Shown here: piece after piece, positions 32,539-42,920 of the stretch
Layout of the letters: each line of letters starts with the position of its first letter
Position numbering within the stretch: the stretch's first letter is position 1
Assembly (NCBI GenBank): GCA_030149295.1
Contig: JASBRV010000067.1
Location: forward strand, 1-64,000
Reading direction: 5' to 3'
Length of the DNA: 64,000 nt
Source: Bacteriovoracales bacterium
GTDB taxonomy: Bacteria; Bdellovibrionota; Bacteriovoracia; Bacteriovoracales; Bacteriovoracaceae
Made by a program: the position numbers and the translations under genes
The notes under the pieces: model-generated
What the model was told of the DNA's origin: nothing
The model's input: the letters and a program-made list of their open reading frames with translations, nothing else
Databases searched by the model: none

Positions 32539-32561
32539 GAGGGCTATGCCCTCTTTATTTT
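32539..32561 (+). terminator. Intrinsic terminator
   Basis: GAGGGCtatGCCCTC then TTTATTTTTTT. Confidence 0.65.
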
Positions 32562-33823
32562 TTTCTTTCTTCGTAAAGCTCGGCAACGACTTTGTCATTA
32601 TCACGAAGCCTTTTATTCATATTCTGCAAAAAGGCCCAAAATATTTTGACACCAATTTTTGGTTCTTTCTTTAAAAGGGGAAAGAGTTTATCGCGATGAA
32701 TTCTCATGAGCTTTGAAGGCGCCAAAGCCTGGATAGTAGCAGAGCGTTTCGCCTTATCGATAAGGGCCATCTCACCAAAAAATTGACCGGGCTTTAAGCT
32801 ATTCACTTGGCTATTTTCATAGAATACACCTAATTCTCCTTTCAAAATCACAAACATTTCATCGCCGTATTCGTTTTCTGTTATGACATTTTGAGCGATC
32901 TTAAAATCAACAACCTCTATGAACTCTAAAAGGAGGGAAATCTCCTTATAATTCAGACTGGAAAAAAGTGGAATTTTTTTAAGAACTTGAATTTTAGAGT
33001 CCGCTGTAACTTTCTCGGGATGAACGGGGGGAGCTTCTTTATCTCCAAATTGAAGTACAATACAGGTGATATTGTCTTTTCCTCCAGATTTATTAGCAAA
33101 ATCGATATAACTCTTCGCCAAGTTTTTAATAGAATTATGGTGATAAATATCAAGGGCTTGATTTTGAGAAAAATAATCATGAAGACCATCGGAGCAAAGA
33201 AAAATGGCATCCCCTTCCATGGTTTCAAAAAACCGACAATCTCCTACAACTGCACTTTGAATGCCCAAGGCCTTAGTAATGACATTGCCTTGGGGATGAT
33301 TATGAGCTTCCTCTTTAGATACCATACCCGCAGCAATCATTTCATTAACAAGAGAGTGATCTTCAGTTAACTGCTTTAACTGACCTTTTCTGATAAGATA
33401 AGCGCGACTATCTCCCACATGAGCGACAAAGACCCCATGCTCGGTTGCAATGGCCAACACCAAGGTTGTGCCCATACCTTTTTTTTCAGGTTCCTTTTGC
33501 GCCCTTTCAAAAATGACTTTATTAGCCTCGGCAATGGAGTCATCAATGAGTGAATAGATTTTTAATTTTTGTTCCGAAAAGCCCTCTGAAGCTGAGGATT
33601 TTTTAAACTCTACTATTGCACTATGATGAGACTTAAAATGCTTCATGATGGCTTCGCAGGCCATCTGTGAAGCGATCTCTCCTGCAGCATGGCCACCCAT
33701 ACCATCACAAACGATGTAGATACCTAATGACTCATCAAAGAGATAAGAATCTTCATTATGATCTCTCTTTCTTCCTGAATCTGTGAGATGGGATACTTCA
33801 AGCATACGTAGAAATTCTATCAC
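32555..33823 (-). CDS. PP2C-type Ser/Thr phosphatase fused to a C-terminal cyclic-nucleotide-binding domain
   Basis: RDHNEDSYLFD, VCDGMGGHAAGE, GKDNITCIVLQ; then IPLFSSLNYKEIS...FGEMALIDKAKRSATIQA. Confidence 0.92.
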   Translation of the reverse strand: MIEFLRMLEVSHLTDSGRKRDHNEDSYLFDESLGIYIVCDGMGGHAAGEIASQMACEAIMKHFKSHHSAIVEFKKSSASEGFSEQKLKIYSLIDDSIAEANKVIFERAQKEPEKKGMGTTLVLAIATEHGVFVAHVGDSRAYLIRKGQLKQLTEDHSLVNEMIAAGMVSKEEAHNHPQGNVITKALGIQSAVVGDCRFFETMEGDAIFLCSDGLHDYFSQNQALDIYHHNSIKNLAKSYIDFANKSGGKDNITCIVLQFGDKEAPPVHPEKVTADSKIQVLKKIPLFSSLNYKEISLLLEFIEVVDFKIAQNVITENEYGDEMFVILKGELGVFYENSQVNSLKPGQFFGEMALIDKAKRSATIQALAPSKLMRIHRDKLFPLLKKEPKIGVKIFWAFLQNMNKRLRDNDKVVAELYEERKK

Positions 33824-33895: not shown

Positions 33896-35284
33896 ATGGA
33901 AAATCATAAAATCGCAATTACGGGTGCAAGTGGCTTCATTGGGAAAAACCTATGTGACAATCTTTTAAAAGATGAGCGCACAGAACTAGTGTGCCTTTCC
34001 CGAAGAGAAAAAACATCCTTTAATAGAGAAAGGGTTTCCTGGAAGAAATGTGATTTATTTTCCATGCTGGATATTGAAAAGGCCGTAAAAGGTTGTGACA
34101 CAGCTGTTTACTTGGTCCATTCTATGCTCCCTAGCGCTCATCTAAGTCAAGCCTCCTTTGATAATCTTGATCTTATCCTTGCAGATAACTTTGCTCGTGC
34201 CTGTAAAAAAATGGGAGTTAAACACCTCGTCTACCTTTCAGGAATTATCCCAGAAAGTGAAAATTTATCCGACCACTTACGAAGCCGCTTGGAAGTAGAA
34301 AGAACTCTCGGCTCCTATGACATACCTTTAACAACTCTAAGGGCCGGTCTCATTTTAGGACCCGGAGGCAGCTCCTCTACGATGGTCATCAACCTAGTAA
34401 AAAACTTACCTATTATGATCCTACCTCAGTGGACGGAAACACTCTCCAATCCTATTGCACTCAATGACGCCGTCCTCGCTCTTCAACGATGCATTTTAGA
34501 CCCAACCATAAAAGGTGGAACCTATGACTTAGGTGGCCCTGAGGTTATAAGTTATCGCGACCTGATCACGAGGGTGGCTAAAATTATGCATAAGAAATCT
34601 CTCTTTTTTTCGGTGCCCTTCATTAGCCAAAGATTATCTAAAAAGTGGGTAAGTTTAATTACGGGCGCTCCGAGTAGTCTTGTGACTCCCTTAATCCATT
34701 CCCTTAAGCATCATATGGTCGTCAATCCGAAACACCAGTTTCCCTTTCAGCATGACCTTACCACTATCGATGATATTTTAATGCAATGCCTTAGCCATCA
34801 TACCCAATACACGCCACATGCTTATGGTTACACAGGAGAAGATGATCTTAAAGAAGTGCGTTCAGTACAAAGACTAGAAACAGTGATGCGCTCTCCTGCC
34901 CATAAAGTAGCAGCGCTCTACATTGATTGGCTGCCTAAGTTTCTAAGTCCCATAATAAAAGTCACCAAAACGGTAAGAGAAAACACCACTCAGATTTACT
35001 TTCGCCTGCGTCTTTTTGATACACCTCTTCTCATCATGCACTTTAGTGAGGAGAGATCGAGTGAAGATCGTCAGCTCTTTTACATTAAAGGCGGAATACT
35101 AGCTTATTCGGAAGGAAGAGGCCGCTTAGAATTTCGAGAGGTTCTTGATGGACGCTACACACTTGCGGCTATTCATGAGTTTCACCCAAGGCTTCCCTGG
35201 TATATTTATAAATATACTCAAGCCCTCTTTCACCTCTTTGTGATGAATCGATTTAACAAATATCTTTTAAAAATGAAGTACTAA
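33896..35284 (+). CDS. Atypical SDR/NAD(P)-binding protein with extra C-terminal domain
   Basis: IAITGASGFIGKNLCDNLL; LVYLSGI; about 170-aa C-terminal extension. Confidence 0.82.
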   Translation: MENHKIAITGASGFIGKNLCDNLLKDERTELVCLSRREKTSFNRERVSWKKCDLFSMLDIEKAVKGCDTAVYLVHSMLPSAHLSQASFDNLDLILADNFARACKKMGVKHLVYLSGIIPESENLSDHLRSRLEVERTLGSYDIPLTTLRAGLILGPGGSSSTMVINLVKNLPIMILPQWTETLSNPIALNDAVLALQRCILDPTIKGGTYDLGGPEVISYRDLITRVAKIMHKKSLFFSVPFISQRLSKKWVSLITGAPSSLVTPLIHSLKHHMVVNPKHQFPFQHDLTTIDDILMQCLSHHTQYTPHAYGYTGEDDLKEVRSVQRLETVMRSPAHKVAALYIDWLPKFLSPIIKVTKTVRENTTQIYFRLRLFDTPLLIMHFSEERSSEDRQLFYIKGGILAYSEGRGRLEFREVLDGRYTLAAIHEFHPRLPWYIYKYTQALFHLFVMNRFNKYLLKMKY

Positions 35285-36396
35285 ACGTATTTCACAAAAG
35301 ACTTGGCAGAGAGAACAAAAACCCCTTCTCTTTCTTTTTGAAAGATAAAATCAACAATTTGCTTTTGCGCCTTTTCAATAGCAACAGCTGACTTTGGCTC
35401 ATCTAATTTATAGAGAAAGTCTTCCTGCATCCTCTCGGTTAAATCTCCCACCAAATCATAAATTAGCTCTTTTGAGGAAAGCCTTAAAGCAGCCGCAAGG
35501 AGGTCTTGATTCACTTCAAGCCAGAACTTTTGCTTCATTTCATTAGTTAAATATCTTAGGCGGTCTAGGCTTTCCACGTGTTCAAATAACTGACGGGCCA
35601 AAACCTTATTTTCTTCACCAATTTTTTTTATCATGCGCATCTGTTCCGTATCACTCAAGCCATTGAAGCCCTCTATTTCTAAGCCTCTAGTTCTTTTTTG
35701 AGTTCTCTCAACGATACTTTTTACGGATTTAATAGATACAGATTCGATGGCCTCTTTGAACTCGATACTTAGGCGATAATTAATGTTTTGAGCCGTCCCC
35801 TCATTTTCTTCGAAAAGCTCTTCATAAGGAACGACCGATAGCACTTCTCCTTCACAATTATCTTCAAGTTCCTGGTCAGAAATATGAGTGATGTTAATTT
35901 TATCCCCCTCAGAAAAAGACTTAAATTCCTGACCTGGCCCAACAAAAGATAAGCCAGCAATAGAGAGGTCTAGGAGATTAGCACTGTATTTCTTCTGTTC
36001 CTCTCCTTGTCCCACTGTAAAACTGACAAATTTAAAATCTTGGTACAGGAAACGGTAACGCTCAACCCGACGCCTTTCTTTAAGCATAAGTTCACTTGGA
36101 GTCTTAAATATTAATTCTCCTGTATCGTAAGAAAACTTCTCTCTTTTAAAAATGAAGTCTAGCTTCTGACAATGAAGATATATCGCTTCACTGGGAATCA
36201 ACATGCCTTCCTCTACTCTTTCTTTGATAGCAACCTCACAATTGCCATCTCGATTGGTAAGCAGTTTCCCTGTAAATTGATGAAACTGTTGAGTGCTATG
36301 TTGCCAAATAGTTAAGAGATATCCATGTTTGATGGCCTTGTTGAGATGATTACTGATTCCTGGTGCGGAAAATAAACTCCACATCTTCATTGTCAT
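35281..36396 (-). CDS. YcgR-like/PilZ protein with C-terminal FliG_C-like domain
   Basis: PilZ: ERRRVERYRF...LLDLSIAGLSFVG. FliG_C-like: ARQLFEHVESLDRLRYLTNEM...WLEVNQDLLAAALRLSSKELIYDLVGDLTERMQEDFLYKLDEPKSAVAIEKAQKQIVDFI. Confidence 0.7.
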   Translation of the reverse strand: MTMKMWSLFSAPGISNHLNKAIKHGYLLTIWQHSTQQFHQFTGKLLTNRDGNCEVAIKERVEEGMLIPSEAIYLHCQKLDFIFKREKFSYDTGELIFKTPSELMLKERRRVERYRFLYQDFKFVSFTVGQGEEQKKYSANLLDLSIAGLSFVGPGQEFKSFSEGDKINITHISDQELEDNCEGEVLSVVPYEELFEENEGTAQNINYRLSIEFKEAIESVSIKSVKSIVERTQKRTRGLEIEGFNGLSDTEQMRMIKKIGEENKVLARQLFEHVESLDRLRYLTNEMKQKFWLEVNQDLLAAALRLSSKELIYDLVGDLTERMQEDFLYKLDEPKSAVAIEKAQKQIVDFIFQKEREGVFVLSAKSFVKYV

Positions 36397-37667
36397 ACAC
36401 TCTCCTGATCTTCTCTTATTTTAGTCATTAGAAAGATCAGAGCAAGCCCTGGTACAGCAAGTGCACTTCCAATAAAAAAGAAAGAAACATAACCGACATA
36501 CTCAACTAAATAGCCAGCCCCACTACCAAAGAGCGTTTTCCCCAAAGCGGCTAGTGAAGCAAAGAGCGCATATTGAGTCGCTGTGTACTTCTTATTGGTC
36601 ATTGTGGCCATAAAACTCACAAGCGCTGTCGTCCCCAAACCACTACTAAAGTCTTCAAAACCAATCACGATAGTTAAGCCTAGGGCTGTTCCCTTTAAAG
36701 AAGCAGTAGTAAGTATAGAAAACAAAGCCGTTGAAATGCATTGAAGAATACCAAAGAGAAAAAGACACCTCATAATTCCAAAATGAAAGATCGCAATTGA
36801 TCCAACACCAAGTCCCGCCATAGAGGAGATAAAGCCTATTCCTTTCGTCACTTCCGCGATCACTTTATTTGAATAGCCCATATCCACATAGAAAGTTCCC
36901 AGCATGGTTCCAACGAGAGCATCGCCAAATTTGAAAAAGAAAATGAATCCTAAAACTATAAAAGCTGCAGACCAGCCTCTTCTTCCCACAAACTCTAAAA
37001 AGGGATCAATTGCTGCTTCTTTTATTGTCTTAGGTCCATCCTCAGTAACTTCTGGTTCATCGGCAAGAAAAGTAAAAGACGTGCAACAAACCATAATGGC
37101 GGCTAAGACCAAGAAAACTTGGTTAAAAGAAAAGCCGAAAGTATCGGGATCAGCTAACCATAAACCGAAACCGCCACAAATAAGCATCCCTACTCTGTAG
37201 CCATAGACATATAAAGATGAACCGATGCCAATTTCTTCATCTGGAAGAATTTCTCTTCGATAGGCATCGATGGCGACATCTTGGGTGGCCCCAAATATCG
37301 CAACTGCCAAAGTAGCAAGAGCAACACTCAACATGGATACTTTAGGCTGACAAAAACTCAAGGCCAACATACTGGAAGCTAAACCAATTTGAGTAAGAAG
37401 CAACCAAGAGCGCCTGCGACCAAGCTTAAAAGGAGTGAAGCTATCGAGGAAAGGTCCCATTAAAAAATTGAGTGAATAAGGAATCGCCACCATACCCATA
37501 AGACCAATAGTCCCAAGGTCGACTTCTTCTCTTCTCGCCCAAACTTTAACGACATAGAAAACGATATTTATAGGAAGCCCTGCCGAGAAACCTAACAAGA
37601 GATTTATCCACATCCGTTTTCTTGACATGGCCAGTCTAAAATTGTCGATTTTCTGCTTGAGAGTCAT
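36393..37667 (-). CDS. MFS transporter, AmpG/PAT-like
   Basis: GFSAGLPINIVFYVVKVW; FGATQDVAIDAYRREIL; multi-pass hydrophobic. Confidence 0.85.
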   Translation of the reverse strand: MTLKQKIDNFRLAMSRKRMWINLLLGFSAGLPINIVFYVVKVWARREEVDLGTIGLMGMVAIPYSLNFLMGPFLDSFTPFKLGRRRSWLLLTQIGLASSMLALSFCQPKVSMLSVALATLAVAIFGATQDVAIDAYRREILPDEEIGIGSSLYVYGYRVGMLICGGFGLWLADPDTFGFSFNQVFLVLAAIMVCCTSFTFLADEPEVTEDGPKTIKEAAIDPFLEFVGRRGWSAAFIVLGFIFFFKFGDALVGTMLGTFYVDMGYSNKVIAEVTKGIGFISSMAGLGVGSIAIFHFGIMRCLFLFGILQCISTALFSILTTASLKGTALGLTIVIGFEDFSSGLGTTALVSFMATMTNKKYTATQYALFASLAALGKTLFGSGAGYLVEYVGYVSFFFIGSALAVPGLALIFLMTKIREDQESV

Positions 37668-38041: not shown

Positions 38042-40612
38042 TTGGGGACATTTATGAATTTGAAACTTGCTCTCACCCTCATGGCCATCTCACCAGCAGT
38101 GCTTTTGGCCCAAACCACAACGACTGACCTCTCTGACATCAACACCGAGGCAACCTCAACTGAATCAACAGCTGATGAGCGCTTTGAAAGAGTTGAAGTT
38201 ACTGGATCATACATCAAGCGTACTGATCTAGAGGGTGCACAGTCAGTACAAACACTAGACAGAGACTACCTTGATAAGACGGGATACAACTCTGTTGGTG
38301 ATGTTATGCGTGATCTTACCGCTTCATCTTTTGGTGGTGCACGTGAATCATCTGGTTCAGCTACTGCTGGGACAGCGACTGTTTCACTTAGAGGTCTTGG
38401 AGCAAACAGAACTCTCGTTCTTCTCAATGGACGAAGAATGGCAAAAGACGGTATTGGCGCCGCAACTGACCTTAACCTCATCCCCATGGCGGCAGTTGAA
38501 AGAATCGATATCCTTAAGACCGGTGGTTCAGCAACTTATGGTTCAGATGCTGTTGGTGGTGTCGTTAACGTCATCACGAGAAAGAACTACGTCGGTGCTG
38601 AAATCAACATGAGACAAGAAGTAACAGAACTAGAAGGTGGTAACAGAACTACGATCTCTGGTGTCTATGGAACGGCTGGATCAAAAGGCTCTATTATGGG
38701 TTCAATCCAGTATCGTAATAACGAAGTTATTTTTGACCGTGATCGTGAGTTCTCATCACAAGGTGAAAGTGTAAACGCTCCTCTTCCTTCTATCTTCCAA
38801 GGTGGAGGCTTCAACAGTATCCCTTCATGTACGACAGTAAATGAAGATGGTGCATGTACATACAACTTTGCTGACTTCTCAACAGGTCTTCCAAAGATTG
38901 AGCAATTCAACGCCCTTACTAATGCAAACTATAATATTGATTCAATGACTGAGCTTCATGCACAACTTTCTGCAACAAGAAAAGAAACGACTTGGAACTA
39001 TGCTCCAGGTGTTGTTGCCTTTAGAAGCTCTGATAACTTTACAGCTCCTAGAGATATCCAAGTTAGAGATGCAGACGGAAACTTAAGAACGATCAACGCT
39101 GGTACAGCACTTCCTTATGTTGGTTGGAGATCTGAAGCTCTTGGTACTCGTGATACTGAAGTAACGACAAACTCTTTCTCTGTTAATGCTGGTGTGAAAA
39201 GATATATCGGTGATTCTTGGGAAGCTGATTTCACAGTTGGGACTGAAAGAATCGTAAGAGATGAGCTTTCAACTCAAGGTTACGCCCTTAAAGACGTTCT
39301 TCGTGCAAGAATTGAAGATGGAAGCTGTGACATCTTTGGTGGAGACACTGCTGGATGTAACGCTCCTGGTGTAGCTTACAATCCAACTCAAGAGACAACT
39401 TCTCGAATTGATACTTATGAGCTTCGTACAAACGGTGAGCTCTTTGACCTTCCTGCTGGTCCTGTTGGAGCAGCCCTTGGTGGTCAGGTTCTTTACGAGA
39501 CATACGCAGTTAACCCTGATGCGCAATCGATCGCTGGCAACGTTGCTGGTGGTGGTACAGCTTCACCTGGCTCAGGTACTCGTCACGTTACAGCTATCTT
39601 TGGTGAGCTTGCGATTCCGATTACTGAAACTCTTGAATCACAAGTTTCTGGTCGTTACGACAGATACTCTGACTTTGGTGATACTTTCAACCCACAAGTA
39701 AACTTCCGTTATAAGCCTATGCAAGAGCTACTTTTCAGAGCTTCTGCTGGTACAGGATTTAAGGCTCCTGATATGCAAGACCTCTACGCCGCTCAAGGTG
39801 TAGGTTTCCCTACCTTTATTGACCAGAACGCTTGTCAGCAAGGTGGATCATGTCGTGCAGAACAATACGAAGTTTTCAGCGGTGGTAACCCTGCCCTTCA
39901 AGAAGAAACTTCAGAATCGTGGAATATCGGTGTTGTTGCTGAGCCAAGTAAGTACTTTTCAGTAGCTCTTGATTACTTCTCAATCAAGCTTGAAAACACT
40001 GTTGGTACTGACCTTGAAGCCATTACTCAAGCGGAGCTTAACGGTGTAGATATCTCTCAATACGGTGTGACAACTGATAGGGATCCTCAATCACAACGTC
40101 TTCTTTCTATGAACGCTCCAACTCTTAACCTTGCCACAACTGAAGTTCAGGGGATTGACCTTAACATGAGATTTAACTCTCAAGCTCAATCTTGGGGTGA
40201 TGTGATCATTTCAAACAACACATCTTTCATGACAAGATACGATATTACCAAGTTTCCTGGTCTTGCTCCAGAAAGTGTTCTTGATCTTGACCCAGGTGCA
40301 CCCGAGTGGAGAAACAACCTTAACGTTGATTACGGTGTAAACGAGAAGCTTCGTGTTGCCACAAACTTCAGAACAATTGGCGCGAACTTCAAGTCTGATC
40401 CTCTTCAAGGAAAGATTCCTACTTTTACGCAGATCGACATGCAAGCGAGTTTAGCTGTTCCATCATTCAATGCGAAAGTTTCAGTTGGTGTTATCAACCT
40501 TCTTAACGACTTTCCTGAGTTTGATGACTCATCACTTTCATCACAGCTCAACACTTCTCTTTACGATCCAATCGGGAGAAGGTTCTTCGCAGCATACACT
40601 CAATCATTCTAA
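38042..40612 (+). CDS. TonB-dependent outer membrane receptor
   Basis: ERVEVTGSYIKRTD plug; VSLRGLGANRTLVLLNGRR; GSDAVGGVVNVIT; C-terminal beta-barrel ending in aromatic F. Confidence 0.93.
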   Translation: MGTFMNLKLALTLMAISPAVLLAQTTTTDLSDINTEATSTESTADERFERVEVTGSYIKRTDLEGAQSVQTLDRDYLDKTGYNSVGDVMRDLTASSFGGARESSGSATAGTATVSLRGLGANRTLVLLNGRRMAKDGIGAATDLNLIPMAAVERIDILKTGGSATYGSDAVGGVVNVITRKNYVGAEINMRQEVTELEGGNRTTISGVYGTAGSKGSIMGSIQYRNNEVIFDRDREFSSQGESVNAPLPSIFQGGGFNSIPSCTTVNEDGACTYNFADFSTGLPKIEQFNALTNANYNIDSMTELHAQLSATRKETTWNYAPGVVAFRSSDNFTAPRDIQVRDADGNLRTINAGTALPYVGWRSEALGTRDTEVTTNSFSVNAGVKRYIGDSWEADFTVGTERIVRDELSTQGYALKDVLRARIEDGSCDIFGGDTAGCNAPGVAYNPTQETTSRIDTYELRTNGELFDLPAGPVGAALGGQVLYETYAVNPDAQSIAGNVAGGGTASPGSGTRHVTAIFGELAIPITETLESQVSGRYDRYSDFGDTFNPQVNFRYKPMQELLFRASAGTGFKAPDMQDLYAAQGVGFPTFIDQNACQQGGSCRAEQYEVFSGGNPALQEETSESWNIGVVAEPSKYFSVALDYFSIKLENTVGTDLEAITQAELNGVDISQYGVTTDRDPQSQRLLSMNAPTLNLATTEVQGIDLNMRFNSQAQSWGDVIISNNTSFMTRYDITKFPGLAPESVLDLDPGAPEWRNNLNVDYGVNEKLRVATNFRTIGANFKSDPLQGKIPTFTQIDMQASLAVPSFNAKVSVGVINLLNDFPEFDDSSLSSQLNTSLYDPIGRRFFAAYTQSF

Positions 40613-40637
40613 TCAAAGCTATATAGAGACGAATGGA

Positions 40638-40666
40638 AAAGGGAGCCACTGGCTCCCTTTTTTTTT
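40638..40666 (+). terminator. Intrinsic terminator
   Basis: AAGGGAGCCactGGCTCCC followed by TTTTTTTTT. Confidence 0.9.
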
Positions 40667-40809
40667 ATTAAATACAAAAACTTACAGCTCAGATGTTTCA
40701 CATTATTACTCATTCTTTAACTAAGAACCTATTGGCATAAGGTTATTTGAGCGCTAAACTCTGTCACTCTTGTAAGAGGAATATGTAATAAAATTAGGGA
40801 GCACAAAAG

Positions 40810-41577
40810 ATGAAATTAGCTATTCCCTTCCTTATTCTTATCTCTATCTCCAGTTACTCAGCATCTGGTGATAAGGCTAAGGCCGTAGTAAAGGAAGACA
40901 AAGTAAATCTAAAGATGGCTCAAGCTTCACAAAAGAAAATTGATGCCGTAGCCGACAAAACTCAAGAACTTCTTCAAACTTACCGTCAAACACTCAAGCA
41001 AATTGATAATGCAAAAAAATACAATGCTCAATTGCGTGAGATGATCAAGACTCAAGAAGAGGAAAAAGTTTCAATTAGAGCTCAAATTGTTCAGCTCAAA
41101 GACACGGCAAAGGGAATCATTCCTTTGATGGTGGACATGGTTAAGAACCTAAAAGCTTTTGTTGATCTTGATATTCCAATGCACAAAGCGGAAAGAGCTA
41201 AGAGAATTGAAAACCTCGACAAGCTTCTTGTTCGTGCCGATGTATCAACGTCAGAAAAGTTTCGCCGCATCTTAGAAGCCTATCAAGTTGAAAATGACTA
41301 TGGTCGCACCATGGACTCTTATAAAGATATCCTCAAGAAGGAAGATGGAACAGAAATGACTGTTGATTACCTTCAAATTGGTCGCGTCGCTTTTCTTTAT
41401 CAAACTCTTGATGGAAATGAGACTGGTCTTTGGGACAAAGAAGCTAAGAAATGGGTTGAGATTGGCAGTGAGTATAAGAAAAGTACTCGTGAAGCAATCA
41501 AAATGGCCAACAAGCAAACAGCTCCTCAGCTAGTAAAAATCCCTGTTTTCGCTCCAACGACAGGAGGGACATTATAA
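40810..41577 (+). CDS. DUF3450-like periplasmic coiled-coil protein
   Basis: Signal peptide; long coiled coil; VDYLQIGRVAFLYQTLDGNETGLWD; first gene of the TonB operon. Confidence 0.85.
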   Translation: MKLAIPFLILISISSYSASGDKAKAVVKEDKVNLKMAQASQKKIDAVADKTQELLQTYRQTLKQIDNAKKYNAQLREMIKTQEEEKVSIRAQIVQLKDTAKGIIPLMVDMVKNLKAFVDLDIPMHKAERAKRIENLDKLLVRADVSTSEKFRRILEAYQVENDYGRTMDSYKDILKKEDGTEMTVDYLQIGRVAFLYQTLDGNETGLWDKEAKKWVEIGSEYKKSTREAIKMANKQTAPQLVKIPVFAPTTGGTL

Positions 41578-42920
41578 TGAAAAAAACAACAATCGCCCTT
41601 ATCTCTACTCTATTAGTAGGAACATCTTTCGCTCAAGCGCCCAAAAATCTTGATGCTCTTCTTCTTCAAGTTAAGAATGAAAGAGTAGAGATGAAAAAAG
41701 AGCTTAACGAAAGAGAGAAACGCTTTGTTGGTGAAAAGAACAAGCAAGCTTCTCTTCTTGCCCAAGCAAAAAAAGAGCTCGCTCGCCAAGAGGCTATCAC
41801 TAAAAAACTACAAGCGACTTTTACCGCCAATGACAAAGTTTTAGGAAAACTTGAAGAAGAGCTCACAATTGCTAAGGGTAACCTTGGTGAGATGTTTGGG
41901 GTTGTTAAGCAAGTTGCTGGTGACTTCAAAGGCCAATTTGAGAACTCTAATATTAGTGCTCAATACCCTGGTCGTGACAAATTCATGGCAACTCTTGCTG
42001 AAACAAAGAAACTTCCCGGTATTGATGAACTCAATAAGCTTTGGTACGAAATGCAAAGGCAAATGACTGAGACTGGAAAGGTCGTTAAGTTTAAGGCCCA
42101 AGTAGTAAAACCTGACGGAACAAAGAGTGAAGAAACTGTCACTCGTGTTGGTGCCTTTAACCTCGTTGCTAATGGAAAGTACCTCAACTACCAAGCCTCA
42201 ACGGGTCAGTTAGTTGAACTTCCAAGACAGCCACAAAGTAAGTACCTTGGTATGATCGAAGATCTTGAAGGGACAACAACTGGCTTTGAAAACTTTGGTG
42301 TTGACCCATCAAAAGGACAAATCCTTAGTATGCTTGTTCAGGCGCCAAGCCTCTCAGAAAGACTCCAGCAAGGTGGGCTCGTTGGTTATGTCACTCTTGC
42401 TCTTCTATTCCTTGGTCTTTGCATGGTTGCTGAGAGAATGGTTGTTCTCAATAGAGAAGGTAAAAAAATCAAAGAACAATTGGCTAACCCTGTTGCTGGT
42501 GACGATAATCCCGTCGCTCAACTTGTGAAAGCCTTCGAAGAAAACAAAGGTAAAGATCTAGAAACTCTAGAGCTTAAGCTTGAGGAGACAATCCTCAAGA
42601 CGGCACCTGTTCTTGAAAAAGGTATTCCTACCATTAAAATTCTTTCTGCTGTAGCACCTCTTCTAGGGCTACTCGGAACGGTTACGGGTATGATCGCGAC
42701 CTTTCAATCAATCACTCTTTTTGGTACTGGGGATCCTAAGCTTATGGCCGGTGGTATCTCTTCTGCCCTTATCACAACGGTTCTCGGACTTGTTTGTGCT
42801 ATTCCTCTTCTTCTTCTTCACAATGTGGTTTCGGCAAAATCAAAAGGCCTTATCCAAATTCTTGAAGAACAAGCAGCAGGGCTTCTTTCTAAAAGAGTAG
42901 ACAGCGGGAGCGCTAACTAA
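41577..42920 (+). CDS. MotA/TolQ/ExbB proton channel protein with periplasmic coiled-coil extension (TtpC-like)
   Basis: N-terminal coiled coil; KILSAVAPLLGLLGTVTGMIATFQSITLFGTGDPKLMAGGISSALITT. Confidence 0.9.
   Translation: MKKTTIALISTLLVGTSFAQAPKNLDALLLQVKNERVEMKKELNEREKRFVGEKNKQASLLAQAKKELARQEAITKKLQATFTANDKVLGKLEEELTIAKGNLGEMFGVVKQVAGDFKGQFENSNISAQYPGRDKFMATLAETKKLPGIDELNKLWYEMQRQMTETGKVVKFKAQVVKPDGTKSEETVTRVGAFNLVANGKYLNYQASTGQLVELPRQPQSKYLGMIEDLEGTTTGFENFGVDPSKGQILSMLVQAPSLSERLQQGGLVGYVTLALLFLGLCMVAERMVVLNREGKKIKEQLANPVAGDDNPVAQLVKAFEENKGKDLETLELKLEETILKTAPVLEKGIPTIKILSAVAPLLGLLGTVTGMIATFQSITLFGTGDPKLMAGGISSALITTVLGLVCAIPLLLLHNVVSAKSKGLIQILEEQAAGLLSKRVDSGSAN

Follow-up and report, generated by a model that had tools for sequence, protein, structure and literature searches.

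A PilZN-PilZ-FliG_C fusion protein of the Bacteriovoracaceae and its possible role as a c-di-GMP-gated brake on the flagellar rotor

What might a protein do that carries a c-di-GMP sensor and part of the flagellar rotor in a single chain? The question is raised by an open reading frame in a 64,000-nucleotide stretch of DNA from a Bacteriovoracales bacterium (the whole of which we call the window). The original prediction had read it as a YcgR-like brake fused to a FliG C-terminal domain. The gene and its parts are summarized in Table 1; it lies on the minus strand, a point absent from that prediction. YcgR of E. coli, once loaded with c-di-GMP, contacts MotA and, by way of YcgR-N, also FliG, slowing the motor and biasing it counter-clockwise (PMC10140304). 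It acts at the MotA-FliG interface, where the order and site of contact are still debated (PMC12713396).

Table 1. The fusion gene, its domains and motifs, and the gene upstream of it (positions in the window).
Feature	Position	Strand	Basis
pilZN-pilZ-fliG_C fusion gene, 371 aa	35281..36396	-	intact ORF, 29 full-length orthologs
PilZN (YcgR-N-like) domain, residues 1-106	36079..36396	-	Foldseek match
PilZ domain, residues 107-220	35737..36078	-	Pfam PilZ E = 0.0025 (below cut-off); fold match to 5y6g and others
c-di-GMP motif RxxxR, R109 and R113	36058..36072	-	invariant, 29/29
c-di-GMP motif DxSxxG, D143/S145/G148	35953..35970	-	D in 28/29 (N in 1), S and G in 29/29
Linker helix, residues 225-238	35683..35724	-	AlphaFold2 model
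FliG_C-like domain (D4/ARM_C and D5), residues 246-362	35311..35661	-	Pfam match 258-362, profile, Foldseek
Y329-K330, aligned with D288-D289 of E. coli FliG	35407..35412	-	alignment to E. coli FliG
Conserved C-terminal tail ending ...YV (E. coli FliG ...DTYV) and stop codon	35281..35313	-	alignments of orthologs and E. coli FliG
Upstream MFS (AmpG/acetyl-CoA-transporter-like) gene, 4-base overlap with the fusion	36393..37667	-	

Full-length orthologs were found in 29 of the 129 Bacteriovoracaceae and Halobacteriovoraceae genomes sampled, with 29-66% identity to the window protein; the named records are from Bacteriovorax, Halobacteriovorax, and MAGs of the Halobacteriovoraceae and Bacteriovoracaceae. 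All 29 are single open reading frames, which rules out read-through or misassembly as the origin of the fusion. The orthologs, like the PDB profile search described below, also exclude a match by chance. The PilZN-PilZ-FliG_C architecture is real and conserved, and of this we are virtually certain. From comparison with the orthologs, translation of the window protein may start at M3 (MKMWS..., codon 36388-36390). No full-length fusion was found in the other sampled families of Bdellovibrionota. A scan of 85,000 species genomes, with a reach restricted to close relatives, returned only Bacteriovoracaceae-type relatives, and none that we found is plasmid-borne. One genome has a 240 aa PilZN-PilZ-only paralog, 33% identical, directly adjoining the fusion gene (G030, C8:148739-149434, minus strand), apparently a duplicate without the FliG_C part. 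In genomes of f12, another family of Bdellovibrionota (G207, G193, G142, G162 and others), PilZN-PilZ regions related to that of the fusion lie within open frames of ~450-550 aa, and the sensor half may there be joined to other partners.

The C-terminal half was compared with sequence and structural models of FliG. Pfam FliG_C (PF01706) matches residues 258-362 with E = 2.8e-10 (40.9 bits against a cut-off of 23.3), covering positions 2-108 of the 108 in the model. A profile built from alignment A5, mini-protein relatives (see below) included, was searched against all solved PDB structures and retrieved FliG chains only (best E = 6.9e-22; the next, unrelated match has E = 0.08). Modeled alone, the domain has pLDDT = 85 and pTM = 0.78, and its best 14 PDB matches by Foldseek are all FliG, 1qc7 with TMt = 0.65. 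The FliG fragment bound to MotAB (8ucs_H) superposes with TMt = 0.77 and rmsd = 2.1 over 84 columns. The Foldseek E-values are modest (best 2.8e-3), which is no surprise with a helical domain of small size; more weight rests on the sequence profile. The C-terminal part of the full-length AlphaFold2 model likewise matches FliG. The last ~130 aa are thus FliG_C as originally proposed, since Pfam and the PDB profile both return FliG and not a generic helical domain.

Like the FliG C-terminal domain, the fused domain has the full extent of ARM_C (D4) and of the torque domain (D5, with C1-6), the same fold and the YV tail. Unlike FliG, the protein has no FliG_N or FliG_M (D1-D3), and TIGR00207, the model of complete FliG, is matched only at positions 198-329 of 338 (17.7 bits against a cut-off of 226.7). 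Lacking those domains and the torque charges discussed below, it cannot be called a FliG. Mean pairwise identity among the fusion orthologs is 54% in FliG_C (63% in residues 278-330), compared with 30% in PilZN and 37% in PilZ. This greatest conservation indicates a functional binding module and not a decaying relic.

The N-terminal half is recognized more by fold than by sequence. The two PilZ motifs lie in the middle of the protein as predicted, ERRRVERYRF at residues 107-116 and DLSIAGLSF at 143-151. Residues 1-240 had been expected to be PilZN and PilZ. Pfam PilZ (PF07238) covers residues 108-193 of the single sequence at 18.5 bits, below its cut-off of 22.5, and so is weak on this single sequence; the fold match is strong. 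The first two domains of the AlphaFold2 model match YcgR, MrkH, VCA0042 and B. subtilis MotI (Foldseek, E down to 2e-11). For PilZN and PilZ together, YcgR 5y6f gives E = 6e-10 and 5vx6 gives E = 3e-9, and YcgR-N (5y6h) alone fits with TMt = 0.73 and rmsd = 2.9. The full-length model has pLDDT = 83 and pTM = 0.42; at so low a pTM the model does not fix how the three domains lie to one another. The fusion therefore resembles the YcgR, MotI (DgrA) and FlgZ brakes in the order and fold of PilZN and PilZ and in the RxxxR and (D/N)xSxxG motifs. It differs from them in adding FliG D4-D5 at the C-terminus, and in matching no YcgR or PilZN sequence model in the Pfam scan. By analogy it should work like the YcgR brake. 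Judged from its sequence, the protein very probably binds c-di-GMP. Besides the fusion, the host genome has ten PilZ matches, and it encodes two GGDEF proteins.

If the fused D5 served as a working torque domain, or imitated the charges of one, those charges should have been kept. We took E. coli FliG from the K-12 genome as reference for the torque positions; the original prediction had quoted its text with MFVF, where the genome reads MFLFENLVDVDD at 233-244. The prediction had correctly placed D288 and D289 on Y-K, and the loss of torque residues proves to be a trait of the family. R281 is lost in 25 of the 29 orthologs (N, T or S in 24; R in 4) and D289 is replaced by K in 24. The D288 position is mostly E, Y or D, and that of R297 is P, S or A. 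K264 is conservatively R in every ortholog. The MFxF motif before D5 is not conserved, the fusions having mostly (I/V)E-x-(L/I). The equivalent of the torque helix has a conserved charge pattern of its own, REEFLxKL. The resident FliG of the host retains the torque charges, R281 and D289 among them, and its MotA retains R90 and E98. With lysine in the helix and R281 and D289 gone, the fused domain is unlikely to be part of normal MotA-FliG torque. These positions also bear on a quite unlikely alternative, in which D5 would fill the MotA cleft as a stator-side decoy or plug and c-di-GMP would disengage the stators like a clutch. The superposition of D5 on MotAB-bound FliG, the arginine at K264 and the charge pattern of the helix are consistent with that, as is the known binding of YcgR and MotI to MotA (PMC10140304, PMC11800159). 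Yet lysine at D289 and loss of R281 should weaken or repel pairing with the conserved R90 and E98 of the host MotA, and a simple MotA decoy is hard to square with this charge reversal.

The origin of the fused domain can be sought among other FliG_C domains of these bacteria. Bacteriovoracaceae-type genomes typically have three or four: FliG, up to two mini-proteins that consist of FliG_C only, and the fusion in about one quarter. The mini-proteins fall into two families of about 140-150 aa that we name type A and type B; examples of such loci are L031:7923-8357 (minus strand) and L032:7657-8082 (plus strand) in alignments A3 and A4. They occur in most flagellated genomes of the family, where the fusion is patchy, and other families of Bdellovibrionota have additional FliG_C matches too, together with short proteins resembling type A. 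Type A adjoins an rfaD-like epimerase gene in several genomes, and type B a coiled-coil gene, with thiolase and Crp-like genes close by. Two further free-standing copies are of the fusion type and have no PilZ part (the X copies, L109 in G057 and L097 in G003). They are not halves of a split gene, as no PilZ gene adjoins either.

A tree of the domain unites the fusions (94/83) and places the two X copies with them (100/99), the whole nested among type A and apart from type B and FliG. Its alignment is short at 136 columns, and the X pair brings together two long branches. For both reasons the tree does not order fusion of a mini-FliG_C to PilZ against loss of PilZ in X. The fused domain has the same length as the mini-proteins and groups with type A and X; it differs from them in carrying the PilZ part. 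Its identity to the resident FliG is about 20%, and this together with the tree rules out a recent duplicate of that protein. The suggestion that the brake was fused to a copy of its own target must accordingly be narrowed: the domain belongs with the separate mini-FliG_C family and did not arise by recent copying of the resident gene. Extra short FliM-like proteins (open frames of about 214-232 aa) accompany full FliM in G109, G058, G057, G001, G085, G059, G043 and others, making FliM a second C-ring component with truncated paralogs in some genomes.

Is the flagellum then the site of action? FliM was found in 117 of the 129 family genomes. Four genomes of genus g27 (88-99% complete) have no FliM, no FliG_C domain of any kind, hence neither type A nor type B, and no fusion. 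G064 (91% complete) likewise has no FliM and no fusion, with a single weak FliG_C match. Two carriers of the fusion, one of which has FliG, give no FliM match; their assemblies are incomplete, at 80 and 88%. The absence of the fusion from FliM-less genomes weakly favors the flagellum over gliding, being the co-loss in one genus and one genome and so amounting in essence to one or two losses. Of the flagellated members of the family, about three quarters do without the fusion.

The gene neighborhood gives no such link. No flagellar or chemotaxis operon surrounds the fusion gene, and its neighbors differ between genera. The MFS gene adjoins it in only 4 carriers, all of the genus of the window, and probably lies outside its system. 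We rejected the MFS, TonB receptor, DUF3450 and ExbB-like neighbors as parts of the system, as their linkage is confined to that genus. Genes for a TonB-dependent receptor, a DUF3450 protein and a long MotA/TolQ/ExbB-type protein stand in a row at 38042-42920 of the window (plus strand); this is an ExbB-like transport cluster and not a flagellar stator. At 32555-33823 (minus strand) Pfam identifies a protein phosphatase of the PP2C type with a fused cyclic-nucleotide-binding domain.

The position of the gene outside flagellar operons would suit an unlikely alternative, that the FliG_C fold, reused as a helical module, binds proteins in gliding, type IV pili or a further c-di-GMP process and makes no contact with the flagellar motor. 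The metabolic or LPS genes beside related FliG_C-only proteins and the loss of MFxF and torque charges are in keeping with it. In Bdellovibrio, moreover, DgcA controls gliding and a PilZ gene lies within a gliding operon (PMC3271064). Against it, the FliM-less relatives have neither the fusion nor its mini-FliG_C kin, and the fold of the N-terminal half is closest to YcgR, MotI and MrkH. We consider the flagellar motor to be the probable target.

The reading that we prefer, and to which we give about an even chance, is that the fusion is a brake or clutch gated by c-di-GMP, using its own FliG-like module to dock on the flagellar rotor and transmitting no torque. Docking by way of that domain is, taken separately, a proposal we hold at slightly below even. 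A rise in c-di-GMP, for example on prey contact or surface attachment, would be bound by the PilZN-PilZ half and change its conformation. Prey contact is a plausible trigger, given that Bdellovibrio requires c-di-GMP cyclases both for entering its prey and for motile exit (PMC3271064). The FliG-like half would then dock at the C-ring, most plausibly with its D4 armadillo helices on D3 of the resident FliG. This pairing is modeled on that between neighboring FliG subunits, whose D3 and D4 armadillo motifs intercalate by domain swap (PMC11087270). The PilZ brake would thereby be placed at the stator-rotor interface, with the fused D5 unlikely to enter normal MotA-FliG torque, and the motor would be slowed, stopped or biased.

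Domain swapping admits two further readings. It is possible, though we would not expect it, that the fusion is a c-di-GMP-gated alternative rotor subunit whose D4-D5 is inserted into the C-ring to create torque-dead sectors. It would then be a specialized representative of a larger group of FliG_C-only rotor modifiers, so far undescribed, across the Bdellovibrionota. A role in assembly or stoichiometry, in which the protein would bind FliG or FliM while the C-ring is built or remodeled and c-di-GMP would tune ring size, flagellar number or polarity, seems very improbable. It could draw on the presence of D4, the subunit intercalation domain, without the FliF-binding D1, on the extra FliM-like paralogs of some genomes, and on the building of the ring by subunit domain swaps (PMC11087270), but nothing ties the fusion to assembly genes or their expression.

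The open-access literature that we searched yielded no account of a PilZ-FliG_C protein, and the set of FliG_C-only mini-proteins across the Bdellovibrionota is previously unremarked. YcgR-GAZ of the Leptospirales is likewise a lineage-specific enlargement of YcgR, but there the extra domain is GAF-like and inserted, and in the fusion it is rotor-derived and C-terminal (PMC11800159). Whether YcgR-type proteins contact the stator, the rotor or both is under debate (PMC12713396); a sensor joined to a rotor-like domain hints that the rotor side matters, and the fusion offers a natural construct for crystallization or imaging. That it is a built-in motor brake is a testable proposal. The mini-FliG_C proteins raise the wider question of motor composition across the Bdellovibrionota. 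If the proposal is true, the C-ring can hold accessory FliG-like parts in predatory bacteria, and a flagellum that stops on contact with prey would be plausible biology for carriers that are mostly aquatic and predatory.
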